Origin: Acidobacteriota bacterium
GTDB lineage: Bacteria; Acidobacteriota; Vicinamibacteria; Vicinamibacterales; UBA823
DNA: 20,794 nt
Direction: 5' to 3'
Assembly: GCA_003509065.1 (NCBI GenBank)
Contig: DODG01000366.1
Coordinates: forward strand, 1-20,794
Under the pieces are notes generated by a model. That model made no database searches and was not told where the DNA came from. It saw only the letters and a program-made list of their open reading frames with translations. Shown here one piece after another: positions 2,368 to 14,776 of the stretch. The position numbers and the translations under genes are program-made. Every line of letters starts with the position of its first letter. Positions within the stretch are counted from its first letter, which is position 1.

Positions 2368-3270
2368 ATGAGTACATTCGTGATTAGTCCGCATATGCGA
2401 CTTCAAGAATGGGTCGCCCACGACAAGGGATACTTCAACGCAGAAGGACTCAAGTACGAGTTTAAAACACGTACGGGCAGCCCCTCAGTGAAGTCCGCTG
2501 AACCTTTACCCAAAGACCAGATTCGTGGCGCGTACCAAAGCATCGAATCTGGTATGCGGCAAACGACCGACGTTAGCTGTGCGTGTCATTGGACCATTAA
2601 TATGGCTGCGGCGGCTGGTCACGGCAAGCTCTGGGGTGAGGCTTATTCGGTTACCCCCTCAGGTATCTACGTACCAGAAGACTCAAGTGTCAGAAATCCT
2701 GAAGACCTCGCCAATATTCCGATTAGCGTCGGTTATCAGTCAGGTAGTCACTATTCAACCATCCAGTCGCTCGAACCGTTTCTGACTAAAGAAGAGATTA
2801 ACCTCCACTTTGGTGGAATGCTTTTTCAGCGACTAGAACTGCTCATCGATCGCGAAGTGCCGGCCGCCGGTCTATTCGGTGGACCGCTATATCTCGCTGA
2901 ACAACTGGGCTTTCGAAAAATCCTCGACACAACGTTTATGATTGCAGCCCTCGTCCCAGACGCTGTTGATGAAAATGATGTTAGAAAATACTACCGCGCG
3001 TTAAAACGGGCACAGGCTGACATCGATTTTCGTCCGGAACAGTACACGCATTTTTACAAGAAGTTCTTCCCGAAACGGTGGCACGATGTGATGGATGTGC
3101 GGAGATTCGGCCCTGGAGAACGACTCGTTTTTCTGCCTTACGACCAGCAGATTTTTGACAGCACACAAAGCTGGGTAGCGGACCGTGGCATTTTTGAAAC
3201 AGGCTTGGAAGATCGAATGGACTACGCCTGTTCCGTGGCTGGTGAATTGACGTCTAACGTTGAAGGCTGA
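2368..3270 (+). CDS. NMT1/SBP-like ligand-binding protein without signal peptide
   Basis: A 300-residue protein with the layout of the NMT1/THI5 and ABC-transporter solute-binding fold. It has an N-terminal segment with WVAHDKGYFNAEGL (residues 15-28), a central NPEDLANIPISVGYQSGS block (110-127) that resembles the hinge and ligand-binding part of these proteins, and a helical C-terminus. No signal peptide or lipobox is present: the start ATG is backed by GAGGAG 11 bases upstream, and the N-terminus MSTFVISPHMR is not hydrophobic enough. It should therefore be cytoplasmic, which is odd for a transport receptor. No ABC permease or ATPase gene is nearby; an MFS transporter gene follows 91 bases downstream. 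SCACHW at 70-75 places two Cys and a His together, loosely like the Cys-rich site of THI5 enzymes, but that parallel is weak. It could be a cytosolic binding protein or an enzyme; ligand unknown. Confidence 0.65.
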   Translation: MSTFVISPHMRLQEWVAHDKGYFNAEGLKYEFKTRTGSPSVKSAEPLPKDQIRGAYQSIESGMRQTTDVSCACHWTINMAAAAGHGKLWGEAYSVTPSGIYVPEDSSVRNPEDLANIPISVGYQSGSHYSTIQSLEPFLTKEEINLHFGGMLFQRLELLIDREVPAAGLFGGPLYLAEQLGFRKILDTTFMIAALVPDAVDENDVRKYYRALKRAQADIDFRPEQYTHFYKKFFPKRWHDVMDVRRFGPGERLVFLPYDQQIFDSTQSWVADRGIFETGLEDRMDYACSVAGELTSNVEG

Positions 3271-3323: not shown

Positions 3324-3365
3324 ATGTACAAAATTGTCATTATTGACCGAAAGAATGGGCTATGA
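3324..3365 (+). CDS. possible 13-codon leader peptide before the MFS gene
   Basis: ATG at 3324 opens a tiny frame, MYKIVIIDRKNGL, whose TGA stop (3363-3365) overlaps the MFS start as ATGA. A GGAA sits about 10 bases upstream. The overlap is the classic arrangement for translational coupling, and the MFS start has only a weak ribosome binding site of its own. It may equally be chance; no homologue is recognised. Confidence 0.25.
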   Translation: MYKIVIIDRKNGL

Positions 3366-4705
3366 GTAATCGCTTCGTACGAGTGTTTCGAGAAATACAG
3401 GATGAAATAAAAGGTCCAGACGGCAAGATGTACTACGGCTGGTGGAATGTTGCGGCCGTCTTCCCGTGTGTCATTTTCATTTTCTCCACTGCGAACATGA
3501 TGCTTCAGTTGATGTATCCGGCAGTTGAGGATGCCCTGAATTTGACCCGAGCCGAAGTCGTGTCAATTTATTCAGTGAAGTCCGGCACGGCGGCCATTGT
3601 GGCATTCGGTGCTGGCTTTCTAATTGACCGTTTAGGCGTCAAAACTATTTTGTACGTATGTGCAACCATGTCAATGCTGGGCTTTGTTTTCTTCCATTTC
3701 GTTGATGGGAAATGGATGTGGTGGCTTGCTGGAATCCCACTCGGGTTCTCCTCAATTCCGCTCCTCTTGGCAACTAAGACTTTGGTTGCCCGCTGGTTTA
3801 ATCGACGTTTGGGGTTGGCGCTAGGCTTGGCGGCAAGCGCAACAAGCATCTCCGGAATGATATTCCCGGTAATTTTTGCCTGGTTGATCGAAACCTTTGG
3901 CTGGAACAATGGGCTCCCTATCATGAGTCTCGCGATTCTTTTCGTAGTCTTCCCAGTCGTGTACTTCGTAGTAAAGGATACTCCGACGAAGGAAGAAGTC
4001 AGTCGAGAATTCGGTAATGAAGCGGCCAGTCCACGCACCTTCGTAAAAGGCCGGTTGATTGAAGAAAGCCAAGGTGACGGGGGGGTCCCCTTTTCGAACA
4101 TTCTCAGGAAACCAGTGTTTTGGGTACTTTGTGTCGTGCAGTTCTTCATTGGATTCGTAGATCAGGGGTTCACTCAAAACGTGACACCATTTCTTGTGAA
4201 AGACCTAGGTTTCACGTTGACTCGAGTGGCTTTCACCGTGAGTTTGTCGTTCATCTTGGGCTTTTCGTCAAAGATCTTTTTTGGTTGGTTCTTCGATCGG
4301 TATTCACTCAAAGGGATTTCCCTCTGCTACGTAATGATCGGATTTTATATCTCACTCGCCTTCGGAATTCAGGGACTGGTCACCCTGATCATCTTCCAGC
4401 TAGCACGGGGATTTGCGCATGGGGGCGTTCTGATGGAAGAACCGGTGGTCGCGAAACACGTTTTTGGTCCAGGTCATCTGGGAAAAATCCTCGGTACGTT
4501 TAGCTCCATAACAGCGCTTGGCTTAATGCTGGGTCCGATCACGGTCGGTTGGTGGTATGGACAGGCTGGTAACACATATATTCCAGCTTTCTTGACCTTA
4601 GTCGGTATCATGCTAGTCTGCGCGGCCACCATGTTCCTCATTAAGCCGGAGTACCGCCTCCGACAGAAACAGGAACAATCTGAACTGGAACCGGCGGAAA
4701 GCTAG
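3362..4705 (+). CDS. MFS transporter (monocarboxylate/OFA-like)
   Basis: A 447-residue polytopic inner-membrane protein whose hydrophobic segments fit twelve helices in two halves joined by a charged cytoplasmic loop near residues 206-245. The MFS signature GFLIDRLGVKT lies between helices 2 and 3 (85-95), and its second-half counterpart GWFFDRYSLKG is also present. The N-terminal YGWWNV and the WFNRRLGLALGLA block before helix 5 resemble monocarboxylate/oxalate-formate type MFS carriers, so a small organic acid or amino-acid derivative is a fair guess. The substrate cannot be read from sequence. It is followed after 20 bases by the oxidase gene, so the two are almost certainly co-transcribed. 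The charged, glutamate-rich C-terminal tail is cytoplasmic. Confidence 0.85.
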   Translation: MSNRFVRVFREIQDEIKGPDGKMYYGWWNVAAVFPCVIFIFSTANMMLQLMYPAVEDALNLTRAEVVSIYSVKSGTAAIVAFGAGFLIDRLGVKTILYVCATMSMLGFVFFHFVDGKWMWWLAGIPLGFSSIPLLLATKTLVARWFNRRLGLALGLAASATSISGMIFPVIFAWLIETFGWNNGLPIMSLAILFVVFPVVYFVVKDTPTKEEVSREFGNEAASPRTFVKGRLIEESQGDGGVPFSNILRKPVFWVLCVVQFFIGFVDQGFTQNVTPFLVKDLGFTLTRVAFTVSLSFILGFSSKIFFGWFFDRYSLKGISLCYVMIGFYISLAFGIQGLVTLIIFQLARGFAHGGVLMEEPVVAKHVFGPGHLGKILGTFSSITALGLMLGPITVGWWYGQAGNTYIPAFLTLVGIMLVCAATMFLIKPEYRLRQKQEQSELEPAES

Positions 4706-4725
4706 TACAGACAAGGATTCATTCG

Positions 4726-5979
4726 ATGGATAGACGGAAGATGCTTAAAGCGTCCGGCCTGGCCGCTCTTGGGCTCGGCTTTACTGGCTGTGCGACTAGA
4801 ACACCGAGCTTGTTGCAACCGGGAACGAACCCTAGAATCCAACTTGCAAGCCTGAATGCCTCGTGGAACCGTGTGATTCGAACGACGGTCGGACTCCGTC
4901 CTTACCGACCTTCCGGCTTTGTAGTCCGAGCCGAAAAACTGGACAATAAGACGCTCGTACATAATTACGGTCACGGGGGTGCCGGCCACTCGTTGGCATG
5001 GGGGACCGGCTCATTGGCTGCTGACCTCGTAAGTGAGGCAGCAACACAGAGTGACCGACGAGTCGCAGTGCTGGGATGCGGCGTGGTCGGATTGACGGCG
5101 GCGCGGCAACTGCAGCGACGAGGTTTTGAGGTCACTATCTATACGTTATCCGTCCCTCCAGACACCACCTCCGATAAGGCGTGGGCCGGATTCACACCAA
5201 CGTCACGGGCTGTAGCTATCGGTGGCCGCACACCCGCTTGGGACACACAATTCCGGCAGGCTGTGGAAATCTCGTATCGAGAACTTCAACTCCTCGCTGG
5301 TCCCAACTACGGCATTACGTGGATTGATGATTACGCTATGACGGATGAGGTGAGGGTGTCGCGTTCACCAGAAGCCCGTGCAGAGGCTGGACTTCTGCCA
5401 GCTCACCTGCAAATGGGCACGGAATTACTGGGACCGGGTGAACATCCTTTTCCCTCCACCTATGTGAATCGAGGAACACGGATGCGTATCGAGCCATCCA
5501 TTTATCTTGAGGCATTAGTACGCGATGTAACCCAGTTTGGGGGCCGCATTGTAATTAGGAAATTCGATACACTCCCTGACCTTATGTCACTTCCGGAACC
5601 AATTGTCGTCAATTCGACGGGGCTGGGATCACGAGTTCTATTCGGCGATGAAGAATTAACGCCAGTCAAGGGCCAACTCACCTTTCTGGTCCCTCAACCA
5701 GAATTGAATTACATACTTTTTGGTGTTCTTCGAAACAGTGAAGGTGGTCTAATGCCCATAACTGTGATGCCTCGTCGAGATGGGATTGCCCTAGGCACTA
5801 CCGGTGAACAGGACGTGTGGACGCTTGAGCCGAACGAGGAGGCGCGCCGTCGAACAGTCGAGGCTCACATTGCGCTCTCGAACATCATGCGCTCACCAAG
5901 ACCTCACACGGTAGTCGCTCGCTCACAACGACTCGGCACAGCCCCGGCCCTTGAAACCTTCTTCGATTTGGAATCGTAA
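4726..5979 (+). CDS. Tat-type lipoprotein D-amino-acid-oxidase-like FAD enzyme, circularly permuted
   Basis: A 417-residue FAD-dependent oxidoreductase related to D-amino-acid oxidase, which oxidises amino acids to imino acids and hydrogen peroxide. The N-terminus has a twin-arginine-like signal (DRRKMLKASG) ending in a lipobox, FTGC with Cys22, so an exported lipid-anchored, FAD-loaded protein is predicted. GLRPYRP (56-62) and HNYGHGG (79-85), normally at the C-terminus of this family, lie before the Rossmann motif GCGVVG (117-122). Next come TTSDKAWAGF, then VNSTGLGS (295-302) and GQLTF. The C-terminus ends after the segment that normally precedes GLRP and has no second HNYGHGG. Arg58 matches the carboxylate-binding arginine (pig Arg283); the position of pig Tyr228 seems to hold Thr346. 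AAGGA lies 8 bases before the ATG. Fold secure; substrate unknown. Confidence 0.88.
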   Translation: MDRRKMLKASGLAALGLGFTGCATRTPSLLQPGTNPRIQLASLNASWNRVIRTTVGLRPYRPSGFVVRAEKLDNKTLVHNYGHGGAGHSLAWGTGSLAADLVSEAATQSDRRVAVLGCGVVGLTAARQLQRRGFEVTIYTLSVPPDTTSDKAWAGFTPTSRAVAIGGRTPAWDTQFRQAVEISYRELQLLAGPNYGITWIDDYAMTDEVRVSRSPEARAEAGLLPAHLQMGTELLGPGEHPFPSTYVNRGTRMRIEPSIYLEALVRDVTQFGGRIVIRKFDTLPDLMSLPEPIVVNSTGLGSRVLFGDEELTPVKGQLTFLVPQPELNYILFGVLRNSEGGLMPITVMPRRDGIALGTTGEQDVWTLEPNEEARRRTVEAHIALSNIMRSPRPHTVVARSQRLGTAPALETFFDLES

Positions 5980-12138: not shown

Positions 12139-13419
12139 TCAGGATACTTTTACGACCACCGAACTGAAAAACTCCCGAGTTCGTTGAGCGACCAAAATTT
12201 CCTCGCCTTCATTCATACATCGGGTCTGGATTGCTTGACCAGTCATGGCAATCCGCGGATCACCGTTCTTGAGCTCCTCACGAACCTCTACAGCGGACAA
12301 TGGCACGGCGTTTTCGTCCCAAGTTAAATTCACCCGTGGTTTACCACGGTCATCTTGTGGGACATCAGCCATAAGACCTGGTATTCCCTGGAGTTCGTTA
12401 GCAATGTACTCAGCCTTGCGGCGCCACTCGGCGTACACTCGATCGTGATCTAATCCAACGTAGCGGTCGAGCGCCACAAGAAAACCCATAATTTCTTCCT
12501 TCCCAACTTTCATACCGCGTCCCAAGTTCGCATTCGGTGCCGAGTGTAATGTCGCCGCTTCGATCAGATCTCGCCGCCCAGCCAGGATTCCAGTCGACTG
12601 TGGTCCCTGAATACCCTTCCCTCCACTAATGACAACCAAGTCCGCACCGGCATCCAGCCAACGAGTCAAGGTGTTTGTTGGTGGTAATTCGGATGCGGCG
12701 TCCACAATTACCGGAACACCCGCGCGACGTCCGAACTCCAGTAATTCATGAACTTTCATAGCCTTGGAATCATCTTCGGTTTGATAGTCAAGGCGAGCAA
12801 GACCAGAAATCATCGCCGTATTCGAGTTAATCGCATTGGCAAACTGTTCCCGCGTCTCAACGTTAATCATCGTCATGCCTGCGGCACGATATGCCCGATC
12901 GTAACCAAACCTTCCCGATGTCTGCGTCAAACACTCACGTTTAGACCACGTGGGGTGTGGTAAGGCGTCAATCTTGGCTTGGTCGTTACCTGTCAAACAG
13001 GCTGCTGCTCCAAGAATCATGGCCGAAAAGGAACCGCTAGTAACTAACGCAGCATCAGCACCGAGCACCTCAGCCAGACGCGCACCAGCTGCTCGTGTCA
13101 GTTCGTGCATATCAACAAAATGCTTGTTGGCCTCAATCATCGCTTGCATTACCTCGGATGGCATGCGAGACCCACCGAGATAGGTGATGTGATCCATCGC
13201 AGGTAGGTGAGGTTTAAGACCAAGCATCCGCGTGTAAATGTTATCGTCAAGGGCCTGTTTGACTACGACAGCCGCTTCAGCACCACTCGTGCCACCTGAC
13301 AGAGTCGCACCCCGGGTTGCGCAACCACTCGCTAAGGCCCCGAAGAGGCCTAGACCAAAAAATTGACGGCGATTCAGCTGATTTCCGATGTTCGATACCT
13401 GTTTTTCAGATTCACGCAT
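12139..13419 (-). CDS. SelA-like PLP-dependent enzyme with Tat signal and lipobox
   Basis: A 426-residue fold-type I PLP enzyme of the SelA/D-glucosaminate-6-phosphate ammonia-lyase group. Lys268 in SGGKGIQGPQ (265-274) is the likely Schiff-base lysine, VDAASELPP (239-247) gives the cofactor aspartate, and SGSFSAMILGAAA (128-140) binds the phosphate region. The N-terminus carries a twin-arginine motif, NRRQFFGLG (16-24), followed by a hydrophobic stretch and lipobox LASGC with Cys33. An exported lipoprotein already loaded with PLP in the cytoplasm is therefore predicted. GGAGAG lies upstream of the ATG. The SelA role in selenocysteyl-tRNA synthesis is unlikely here because of the export signal, and no selB or selC was seen. 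A beta-elimination or ammonia-lyase reaction on an amino acid or amino sugar is likelier; the substrate is unknown. Confidence 0.87.
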   Translation of the reverse strand: MRESEKQVSNIGNQLNRRQFFGLGLFGALASGCATRGATLSGGTSGAEAAVVVKQALDDNIYTRMLGLKPHLPAMDHITYLGGSRMPSEVMQAMIEANKHFVDMHELTRAAGARLAEVLGADAALVTSGSFSAMILGAAACLTGNDQAKIDALPHPTWSKRECLTQTSGRFGYDRAYRAAGMTMINVETREQFANAINSNTAMISGLARLDYQTEDDSKAMKVHELLEFGRRAGVPVIVDAASELPPTNTLTRWLDAGADLVVISGGKGIQGPQSTGILAGRRDLIEAATLHSAPNANLGRGMKVGKEEIMGFLVALDRYVGLDHDRVYAEWRRKAEYIANELQGIPGLMADVPQDDRGKPRVNLTWDENAVPLSAVEVREELKNGDPRIAMTGQAIQTRCMNEGEEILVAQRTREFFSSVVVKVS

Positions 13420-13585
13420 GGGAAACTCTCCAAGGAATTATTAATGACAAAACGTTGGCCTTCTGACTCATGCACCTTACCACGCGTGACGAAACACCAG
13501 CGATTATTTCAACCGTTACATCTGTGGTTGAACCAATCCACCTGTAGTTATTCGACAAGGCATGACAAGATGTACCCATTCACTC

Positions 13586-13591
13586 AAGGAG
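13586..13591 (+). promoter_or_regulatory. ribosome binding site fixing the P1 peptidase start
   Basis: AAGGAG, 6 bases before the ATG at 13598. It selects this start over an in-frame ATG at 13562 that lies upstream of the site and would add 12 polar residues before the signal peptide. Confidence 0.7.
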
Positions 13592-13597
13592 TTTGAC

Positions 13598-14776
13598 ATG
13601 AACACTGGTTTGATTTGGATGTTTGCAGGTGCCACGGTTTTAATTTCTATGACTACACTGTCTGGTACTCAAGACCGCATCCGAACACGAGACCTCGGTA
13701 TCGAACCTGGTGTATTCCAGCCAGGTCCACTGAACGCTATCTCGGACGTAGCAGGCGTACGTGTTGGGCACACAACTATCATTCAGGGAAATAACATTCG
13801 GACAGGAGTCACCGCCATCGTTCCACACGAAGGAAACCTCTTTCAGGATAAAGTCGCTGGCGCGGTCTATGTCGGTAACGCGTTCGGCAAGTTAGCTGGT
13901 TCAACTCAAGTTGATGAACTAGGTACTATCGAAACTCCAATCATCCTGACAAATACACTAAGTGTTGGCACCGCAGTTGAAGCAACGGTTGCCTACATGT
14001 TACGCCTTGATGGGAACGAGGAGGTGCGATCGATCAACGCTCTTGTCGGTGAAACTAACGACGGGGGTTTGAATGACATTCGTGGACAACATGTAAAACC
14101 GCATCATATCTGGGAAGCCATCGACGCCGCCTCCGGTGGAACTATCAGTGAAGGCTCGGTGGGCGCTGGCACGGGCACAACCGCATTCGGATGGAAAGGG
14201 GGTATCGGCACTTCATCTCGACAACTCCCCGACCGATTTGGTGGCTATACGGTGGGTGTGCTCGTACAAAGTAACTACGGCGGTGTCCTTACAATTGACG
14301 GTGTTCCAATTGGAAAAGAACTCCAGCGCTATTCATACGCACCCCCTGTGGCTGATCAGAGCAACGACAGCGGTTCAGCCCCTTTCGACAACCTAGGTGA
14401 TGGCTCCTGCATGCTCGTCGTAGCTACTGATGCACCGGTTGATGCGAGAGATCTTAAGAGAATCGCCACACGGGCAGTGTTTGGCCTAGCCCGGACTGGT
14501 TCCTCTTACAGCAATGGCAGTGGGGATTTCGCAATTGCATTTTCGACTTCACAGGAGATGCGCTCTACATTTGGAGACAGAAATCCGAGAAAGCGATCGA
14601 TTTTGCAACCAGATGGAGTATCGCCCTTGTTTCAAGCGACGCTCGAGGCAACAGAAGAAGCCGTCTACAATTCGATGCTGCAAGCCACTACTATCACTGG
14701 CAACGGACGAACCGCTGAGGCCTTGCCGATCGATCAGGTGCGGCGAATTCTTGAACAATACGGTCGTGGCCAATAG
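13598..14776 (+). CDS. secreted P1/DmpA-family aminopeptidase (S58)
   Basis: A 392-residue N-terminal nucleophile hydrolase of the DmpA (L-aminopeptidase/D-esterase)/BapA family. These self-cleave into two chains and then release N-terminal residues from peptides, including D- or beta-residues in some members. The start at 13598 opens a signal peptide (LIWMFAGATVLISMTTLS). Seen: GPLNAISDVAGVRVGHTT (43-60), GETNDGGLNDIRGQHV (151-166), and the self-cleavage site Gly269-Ser270 inside DGSCMLVVATDAPVD, with Ser270 the predicted nucleophile. Then come ARTGSSYSNGSGDFAIAF and a C-terminal tail close to family length. In relatives the residue after NDG is usually aromatic (Tyr/Trp); here it is Gly157, which may alter activity. 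It is divergent from the SelA-like gene over 178 bases. Export suggests peptide scavenging outside the cytoplasm. Confidence 0.9.
   Translation: MNTGLIWMFAGATVLISMTTLSGTQDRIRTRDLGIEPGVFQPGPLNAISDVAGVRVGHTTIIQGNNIRTGVTAIVPHEGNLFQDKVAGAVYVGNAFGKLAGSTQVDELGTIETPIILTNTLSVGTAVEATVAYMLRLDGNEEVRSINALVGETNDGGLNDIRGQHVKPHHIWEAIDAASGGTISEGSVGAGTGTTAFGWKGGIGTSSRQLPDRFGGYTVGVLVQSNYGGVLTIDGVPIGKELQRYSYAPPVADQSNDSGSAPFDNLGDGSCMLVVATDAPVDARDLKRIATRAVFGLARTGSSYSNGSGDFAIAFSTSQEMRSTFGDRNPRKRSILQPDGVSPLFQATLEATEEAVYNSMLQATTITGNGRTAEALPIDQVRRILEQYGRGQ

Follow-up and report, generated by a model that had tools for sequence, protein, structure and literature searches.

A gene in a 20,794-nucleotide stretch of an Acidobacteriota genome (contig DODG01000366.1 of assembly GCA_003509065.1, here called the window) almost certainly encodes a circularly permuted member of the D-amino-acid oxidase (DAAO) fold, in which the segments that normally close the chain precede the block carrying the flavin adenine dinucleotide (FAD) motif. 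The permuted DAAO is a family present in at least four phyla, and not a misassembly. Taken as a whole, the evidence suggests that the window protein is probably a permuted lipoprotein DAAO, predicted to be exported by the twin-arginine (Tat) route and likely to use FAD to oxidize a D-amino acid or some similar amino acid.

The gene occupies a single open reading frame (ATG at 4726, stop ending at 5979) of 417 amino acids, with a match to the Pfam DAO family PF01266 (E = 6.5e-26; 92.1 bits, above the curated cut-off of 27.9). Its parts are as follows.

4726..5979, forward strand: gene for the permuted D-amino-acid-oxidase-type flavoprotein, 417 amino acids (open reading frame, Pfam DAO PF01266, rotation scan, AlphaFold2 model)
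4726..4794, forward strand: predicted Tat-type lipoprotein signal, residues 1-23 (RRKMLK, hydrophobic run and FTGC, from reading the sequence)
4861..5040, forward strand: N-block, residues 46-105, corresponding to the C-terminal end of DAAO (GLRP, HNYGHGG, helix 84-105)
5041..5058, forward strand: junction, residues 106-111, linking the former C-terminal helix with the former first strand (AlphaFold2 helix 84-105 and strand 112-116)
5059..5901, forward strand: C-block, residues 112-392, corresponding to the N-terminal four fifths of DAAO (GCGVVG Rossmann FAD motif)
5761..5763, forward strand: codon for Thr346, at the place of DAAO Tyr228 (alignment)
5902..5976, forward strand: variable C-terminal tail, residues 393-417 (sequence comparison, AlphaFold2 confidence)

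The motif order was the starting point of a first-pass annotation of this DNA, which placed GLRPYRP at 56-62, HNYGHGG at 79-85 and GCGVVG at 117-122; these places are correct, and each motif occurs once, in that order. The window protein thus carries the three signatures of DAAO and D-aspartate oxidase (DASPO) (GxGxxG, GLRP with its carboxylate arginine, and HNYGHGG), with the standard order, FAD motif first and GLRP and HNYGHGG last, swapped. By alignment, Arg58 in the GLRP of the N-block corresponds to Arg283 of human DAAO, and a profile of the N-block alone (residues 43-107, window protein and 33 relatives) matches 17 PDB sequences of DAAO and DASPO near their C-terminal ends. We compared these features across 130 permuted proteins, a set that includes the window protein and a few copies fetched twice (125 distinct cores), and from which a fragment (L030_4772, 71.7 bits) and L126, although read as permuted, were left out; L029, of normal order by rule, was moved into it after reading. 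The distance from HNYGHGG to GxGxxG is 35 in 108 of these proteins and 36-42 in 19, the pattern finding none in the remaining 3; in the window protein it is 38. Because of its swapped order, we file the protein, as judged from its sequence, in a permuted sister group and not with standard DAAO.

To assess the permutation independently, we built a profile of 311 positions from 24 normal-order DAAO and DASPO proteins only, cut the core of the window protein (residues 45-392) at 116 places, and scored each rotation against it. The native core matches in two swapped pieces (117.6 and 50.3 bits). The best rotation, at cuts 102-111, scores 180.5 bits in a single unbroken stretch covering positions 2-309 of 311; the median over all 116 cuts is 129.8 bits, and five shuffled cores gave no match or a score below zero. 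Aligned as a duplicated sequence, a check proposed at first pass, the core likewise gives one stretch, at 177.4 bits. The same behavior extends to the family: in 129 of the 130 permuted proteins the rotated form scores over 10 bits above the native one and covers 280 or more of the 311 positions (median gain 68 bits), the sole exception being L128, whose match is shortened. Furthermore, a rotated family profile of 18 rows (20 were chosen; L079 and L090 were left out) finds 17 PDB sequences at E ≤1e-10, all of them DAAO or DASPO matched in one piece, the best match being human DASPO (6rkf 13-334, profile positions 4-327 of 329, 172 bits). A native-order profile built on 66 sequences recovers these 17 as well, scoring 161.7 bits on 6rkf in two swapped stretches (115.1 and 44.2 bits; the swap is seen in both alignments printed). 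A phmmer search of the PDB with the window protein also recovers 6rkf, with query residues 107-156 aligned to 9-60, 248-383 to 143-269, and 51-105 to 280-337. All parts being present once, with their order swapped and one continuous full-length match obtained upon rotation, the clean permutation favored at first pass over truncation or fusion is borne out.

The AlphaFold2 model of the window protein is confident (pLDDT 88.4, pTM 0.85) and has the overall DAAO/DASPO fold, residues 109-387 superposing on residues 2-264 of human DASPO. Structural superposition had also been suggested as a check, and it succeeded for this part; the swapped block was not superposed directly, because both fold comparisons align in chain order, and the claim of continuity therefore rests on the sequence profiles. 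In the model, the new termini fall between helix 371-387, the last one, and the GLRP strand (50-60), and six residues link the old ends. Confidence falls along the tail, with block means of 73 for residues 391-400, 53 for 401-410 and 45 for 411-417.

A search for homologues with the same order, as the first-pass annotation had advised, reveals a large family in many genomes of several phyla. The protein search yielded 6752 matches at E ≤1e-3 among 7995 scored candidates, and order was checked for the 120 listed. In all 121 proteins (the window protein and the 120 matches listed) GLRP precedes the main GxGxxG; under a strict three-motif test, 103 of the same 121 pass, 15 have a variant HNYGHGG, and 3 carry an additional GxGxxG-like string within the signal. 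A genome scan returned at least 581 relatives among at least 590 candidate stretches, of which the best 80 were kept. These 80 loci come from Acidobacteriota, Gemmatimonadota, Pseudomonadota, Bacteroidota and others, and 79 are readable as permuted proteins, L049 being left out since its frame runs off the locus. The nearest genome has the same block order in a protein 98% identical to that of the window, and the permuted order is found in named isolates (Sphingopyxis panaciterrae, Dyadobacter spp. and Dokdonella fugitiva). All 66 alignment members scanned have a Pfam DAO match at E ≤0.001. Among 60 relatives of the nearest genome, 24 match the window protein at E ≤1e-3, some through the FAD motif alone, and no relative was found in the viral contigs searched.

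To gauge how often each order occurs, we ran the rotated profile (E ≤1e-15) against 797 genomes drawn from four phyla. Summed over the surveys, 88 genomes have a match (52 permuted, 33 of normal order, 3 unclear), counts that include the center genomes G001, G242, G243 and G251, known or chosen as carriers of the permuted gene. Acidobacteriota, the phylum of the window, has matches in 25 of 199 genomes (16 permuted, 8 normal, 1 unclear), and Gemmatimonadota, surveyed around a Longimicrobiales genome and by coordinates only, in 23 of 101 (19 permuted, 2 normal, 2 unclear). Around Sphingopyxis in the Pseudomonadota, all 15 matches in 299 genomes are permuted, those of G365, G413 and G464 settled by reading; around Dyadobacter in the Bacteroidota, 25 of 198 genomes match, 2 of them permuted and 23 normal (13 read, 10 by coordinates). 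Normal-order genes may be undercounted, because the profile derives from permuted sequences and was scored against just some of the candidates in each genome.

The family also contains divergent members. L115-L117 and L127-L132, from the Acidobacteriota and Pseudomonadota sets, form a second divergent permuted subfamily (280-333 bits against the native profile), and L124, L125 and L126 are divergent permuted proteins of the Pseudomonadota set, the N-block match being shorter in L124 and L125. One contig of a metagenome-assembled genome (MAG) carries two permuted genes in tandem (L055:2507-3652 and 3836-4978, forward strand).

Residues 1-23 of the window protein (MDRRKMLKASGLAALGLGFTGCA) resemble a twin-arginine signal with a lipobox-like FTGC, and by reading, residues 3-22 hold a twin-arginine pair, a hydrophobic run and a lipobox cysteine. 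To extend this observation, we applied a Tat rule of our own making, not a trained predictor, to start codons called mechanically. A twin arginine lies near the N-terminus of 129 of the 130 permuted proteins, that of the window included, and 107 pass the rule, 81 with a lipobox and 26 as Tat alone. A narrower RR pattern occurs in 123 of 130, compared to 38 expected from shuffling the same segments. Among 21 normal-order bacterial proteins none has a signal by rule: 16 start too near the FAD motif and 5 fail, one of these 5 having RR without a hydrophobic run. Judged on these N-termini, export of the permuted protein by the Tat route is very likely.

The arginine that binds the substrate carboxylate is invariant. 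Arg283, Arg286 and Gly313 of human DAAO (Arg58, Arg61 and Gly85 of the window protein) are kept in all 130 permuted proteins, and the rest of the segment His307-Gly313 (HNYGHGG) and the FAD motif are near-invariant. Arginine occupies the DAAO 232 and 283 positions in 21 of 21 normal-order bacterial and 130 of 130 permuted proteins. The residue next to the Tyr228 site, Arg350, is invariant in permuted and normal-order bacterial proteins, the human enzymes having glycine there. Carboxylate binding is thus likely to be kept, and the rest of the substrate pocket differs in the subfamily of the window protein.

Several results weigh against reading the protein as a permuted, exported DAAO. The gain from rotation is seen with profiles and not with single sequences: rotating the window protein alone in phmmer against 6rkf totals 83.1 bits, compared to 84.6 for the native order, and so brings no gain. 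The isolated N-block folds poorly on its own (pLDDT 69.9), too weakly for its model to serve as a search query, and the open reading frame has no match above any cut-off in NCBIfam. The hydrophobicity rule is failed by 23 of the 130 permuted proteins, 22 of which still have RR on reading, and no signal is visible at the called start of L125. No conserved operon was found among the neighbors at 102 loci, and in five further genomes from the window's own family the transporter and binding-protein genes that lie upstream in the window were not found beside the permuted gene. Finally, the Tyr228 position, which is tyrosine in 19 of 21 normal-order bacterial proteins, is Thr346 in the window protein and varies across the 130 permuted proteins (Tyr 61, His 35, Gly 12, Asn 10, Ser 7, others 5), and human Tyr224 has no clear counterpart, although it is likewise not kept in the normal-order bacterial relatives.

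The substrate may differ because Thr346 replaces Tyr228. The protein could quite possibly be a permuted, exported DAO-fold protein whose substrate is not a D-amino acid but, for instance, an imino acid, an opine or an N-modified amino acid, or it could be no oxidase but a dehydrogenase that supplies a membrane carrier. This is not the outcome that we favor: its sequence and fold are closest to DAAO and DASPO, and all 130 permuted proteins keep the carboxylate arginine. Oxidation of an amino acid by the window protein is, on these grounds, rather likely; that a D-amino acid is the substrate of this particular protein comes close to an even chance but falls slightly below it. As an amino acid oxidase, the protein would fold around FAD in the cytoplasm and cross the membrane folded via Tat, after which its lipobox cysteine would anchor it. 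Arg58 would hold the substrate carboxylate while hydride moves to flavin N5, the imino acid would hydrolyze to keto acid and ammonia, and the flavin would be reoxidized by oxygen, yielding hydrogen peroxide, or by a membrane carrier.

To elucidate the origin of the swapped order, we inferred a tree of 60 proteins set to the same order: 36 permuted proteins, chosen below 58% identity with the copy of the nearest genome kept besides, 21 of normal order, and 3 PDB rows. The 36 permuted proteins lie on one side of a single branch (support 97/91), so that one change of order is needed, and 96% of 200 bootstrap trees agree on one change. A single origin is likely because of this placement, and we consider it very probable that the permuted order arose once. 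The tree has no root and long branches lead to four of its normal-order rows, which leaves room for more than one switch; one change in 96% of the bootstrap trees and the support of the branch make repeated switching unlikely. The longest branch is L114:3141-5318 (forward strand), a normal-order DAAO-like frame of 725 residues, perhaps fused to another domain. Normal order is probably ancestral, being that used in the DAO superfamily at large, and circular permutations usually arise through tandem duplication, fusion and loss of the outer halves. The permuted DAAO order would have arisen in this way, by tandem duplication, fusion and trimming of the outer halves.

Two trivial explanations of the swapped order were considered. 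Two-stretch matches alone could mimic a fusion or duplication in which the N-terminal GLRP and HNYGHGG block is extra and the C-terminus supplies the same block too. Nothing was found in its favor: there is no second copy of the block, as the first-pass annotation had stated, HNYGHGG is never matched twice in the 121 homologues or the 130 permuted proteins, the C-block is followed by just a variable tail of about 25 residues, and rotation yields one full-length match. With each block in single copy we rejected this explanation, which is highly improbable. A misassembled junction near 5030-5070, the other condition under which the permutation was said to fall, has a negligible chance of being correct and was also rejected, the order being independently present in the nearest genome at 98% identity and in named isolates and MAGs of several phyla.

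The first-pass annotation had further proposed that permutation may let the FAD segment, now C-terminal, follow an export signal. The association between order and signal is strong; because the order changed once, it represents one event and not proof of cause. Furthermore, permutation is not strictly required for an export signal, since other DAO-fold enzymes have N-terminal extensions without it, as in the Proteus L-amino acid deaminase, which aligns only from chain residue 53-54.

Upstream of the permuted gene, and 20 bases from it, lies a gene for a major facilitator superfamily (MFS) transporter (3362-4705), preceded by a gene (2368-3270, forward strand) whose product resembles the binding protein of a transporter; it has no match in Pfam or NCBIfam, and no signal peptide is obvious from the start as called. 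A serine peptidase of family S9 lies downstream. This arrangement recurs in the nearest genome, where alone the MFS and binding-protein genes were found again, and we therefore rejected the three genes as a functional unit; the peptidase gene is also found in L020 and L022. Across 675 neighboring open reading frames at 102 of 129 loci, the largest cluster is an amidase in 8 loci, mostly on the opposite strand. Judging from these neighborhoods, the permuted gene seems to act alone. In four Dyadobacter loci (L076, L079, L081 and L087) the gene that follows on the same strand is a member of one shared cluster, of the beta-eliminating lyase family where scanned (L087). Farther along the window, 12139-13419 (reverse strand) encodes a SelA/DgaE-type pyridoxal phosphate enzyme (TIGR01437 match below cut-off) that begins with a twin-arginine and lipobox-like stretch (NRRQFFGLGLFGALASGC); it looks exported, which seems unusual. 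The S58 (DmpA-type) peptidase encoded at 13562-14776 (forward strand) has a stretch resembling a signal close to its N-terminus. Release of D-amino acids is known for some DmpA enzymes, and this peptidase is a possible, unlinked partner of the permuted oxidase. A tRNA scan found none.

Relative to DAAO and DASPO of known structure (human, pig, Rasamsonia and yeast), with which it shares the DAO fold and the three motifs, the window protein differs in its swapped blocks, in Thr346 for Tyr228, and in its added Tat-type signal and tail. The normal-order bacterial DAAO-like proteins (L107-L114, L138-L149 and L151) come in part from the same phyla and have the same motifs, but place the FAD block first, are signal-free by rule and lie on the other side of the tree branch. 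The wider PF01266 superfamily (glycine oxidase ThiO, sarcosine oxidase, L-amino acid deaminase) shares the fold of residues 109-387, and to our knowledge its members open with the FAD motif. Naturally permuted proteins include concanavalin A, swaposins and permuted DNA methyltransferases, which likewise have conserved blocks swapped and the fold kept but belong to unrelated folds; we know of no DAAO example of natural permutation. Where given, source names for the permuted homologues are "FAD-dependent oxidoreductase", "D-amino-acid oxidase" or the like. The open-access literature, searched by titles and the starts of abstracts, contained no report of a permuted DAAO; subscription papers fall mostly outside it, and an earlier report is possible. 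In the portions consulted, PMC7503967 and PMC13359353 have permutation and D-amino-acid-oxidase terms in unrelated places, PMC4699246 and PMC4912152 lack "permut", and PMC3637537, which uses an artificially permuted FAD-binding domain, and PMC1683948 describe structure-alignment methods and leave amino acid oxidases unmentioned. A widespread natural permutation of DAAO, of likely single origin, is thus unreported as far as these searches could tell.

Biosensors and the production of antibiotics make use of DAAO, a flavoenzyme familiar from textbooks. The permuted family shows that its fold accepts termini placed between the last helix and the GLRP strand, a property of use in engineering. With both orders present in one phylum, it becomes directly testable whether a change of cell compartment can fix a permutation. 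Tentatively, a cytoplasmic DAAO may have become a family of flavo-oxidases at the cell surface through one ancient permutation, which took the N-terminus from the buried first Rossmann strand to a surface loop and so allowed a Tat lipoprotein signal; the family would then have spread through the Acidobacteriota, Gemmatimonadota, Pseudomonadota and Bacteroidota, where it would scavenge D-amino acids outside the cytoplasm or police them.
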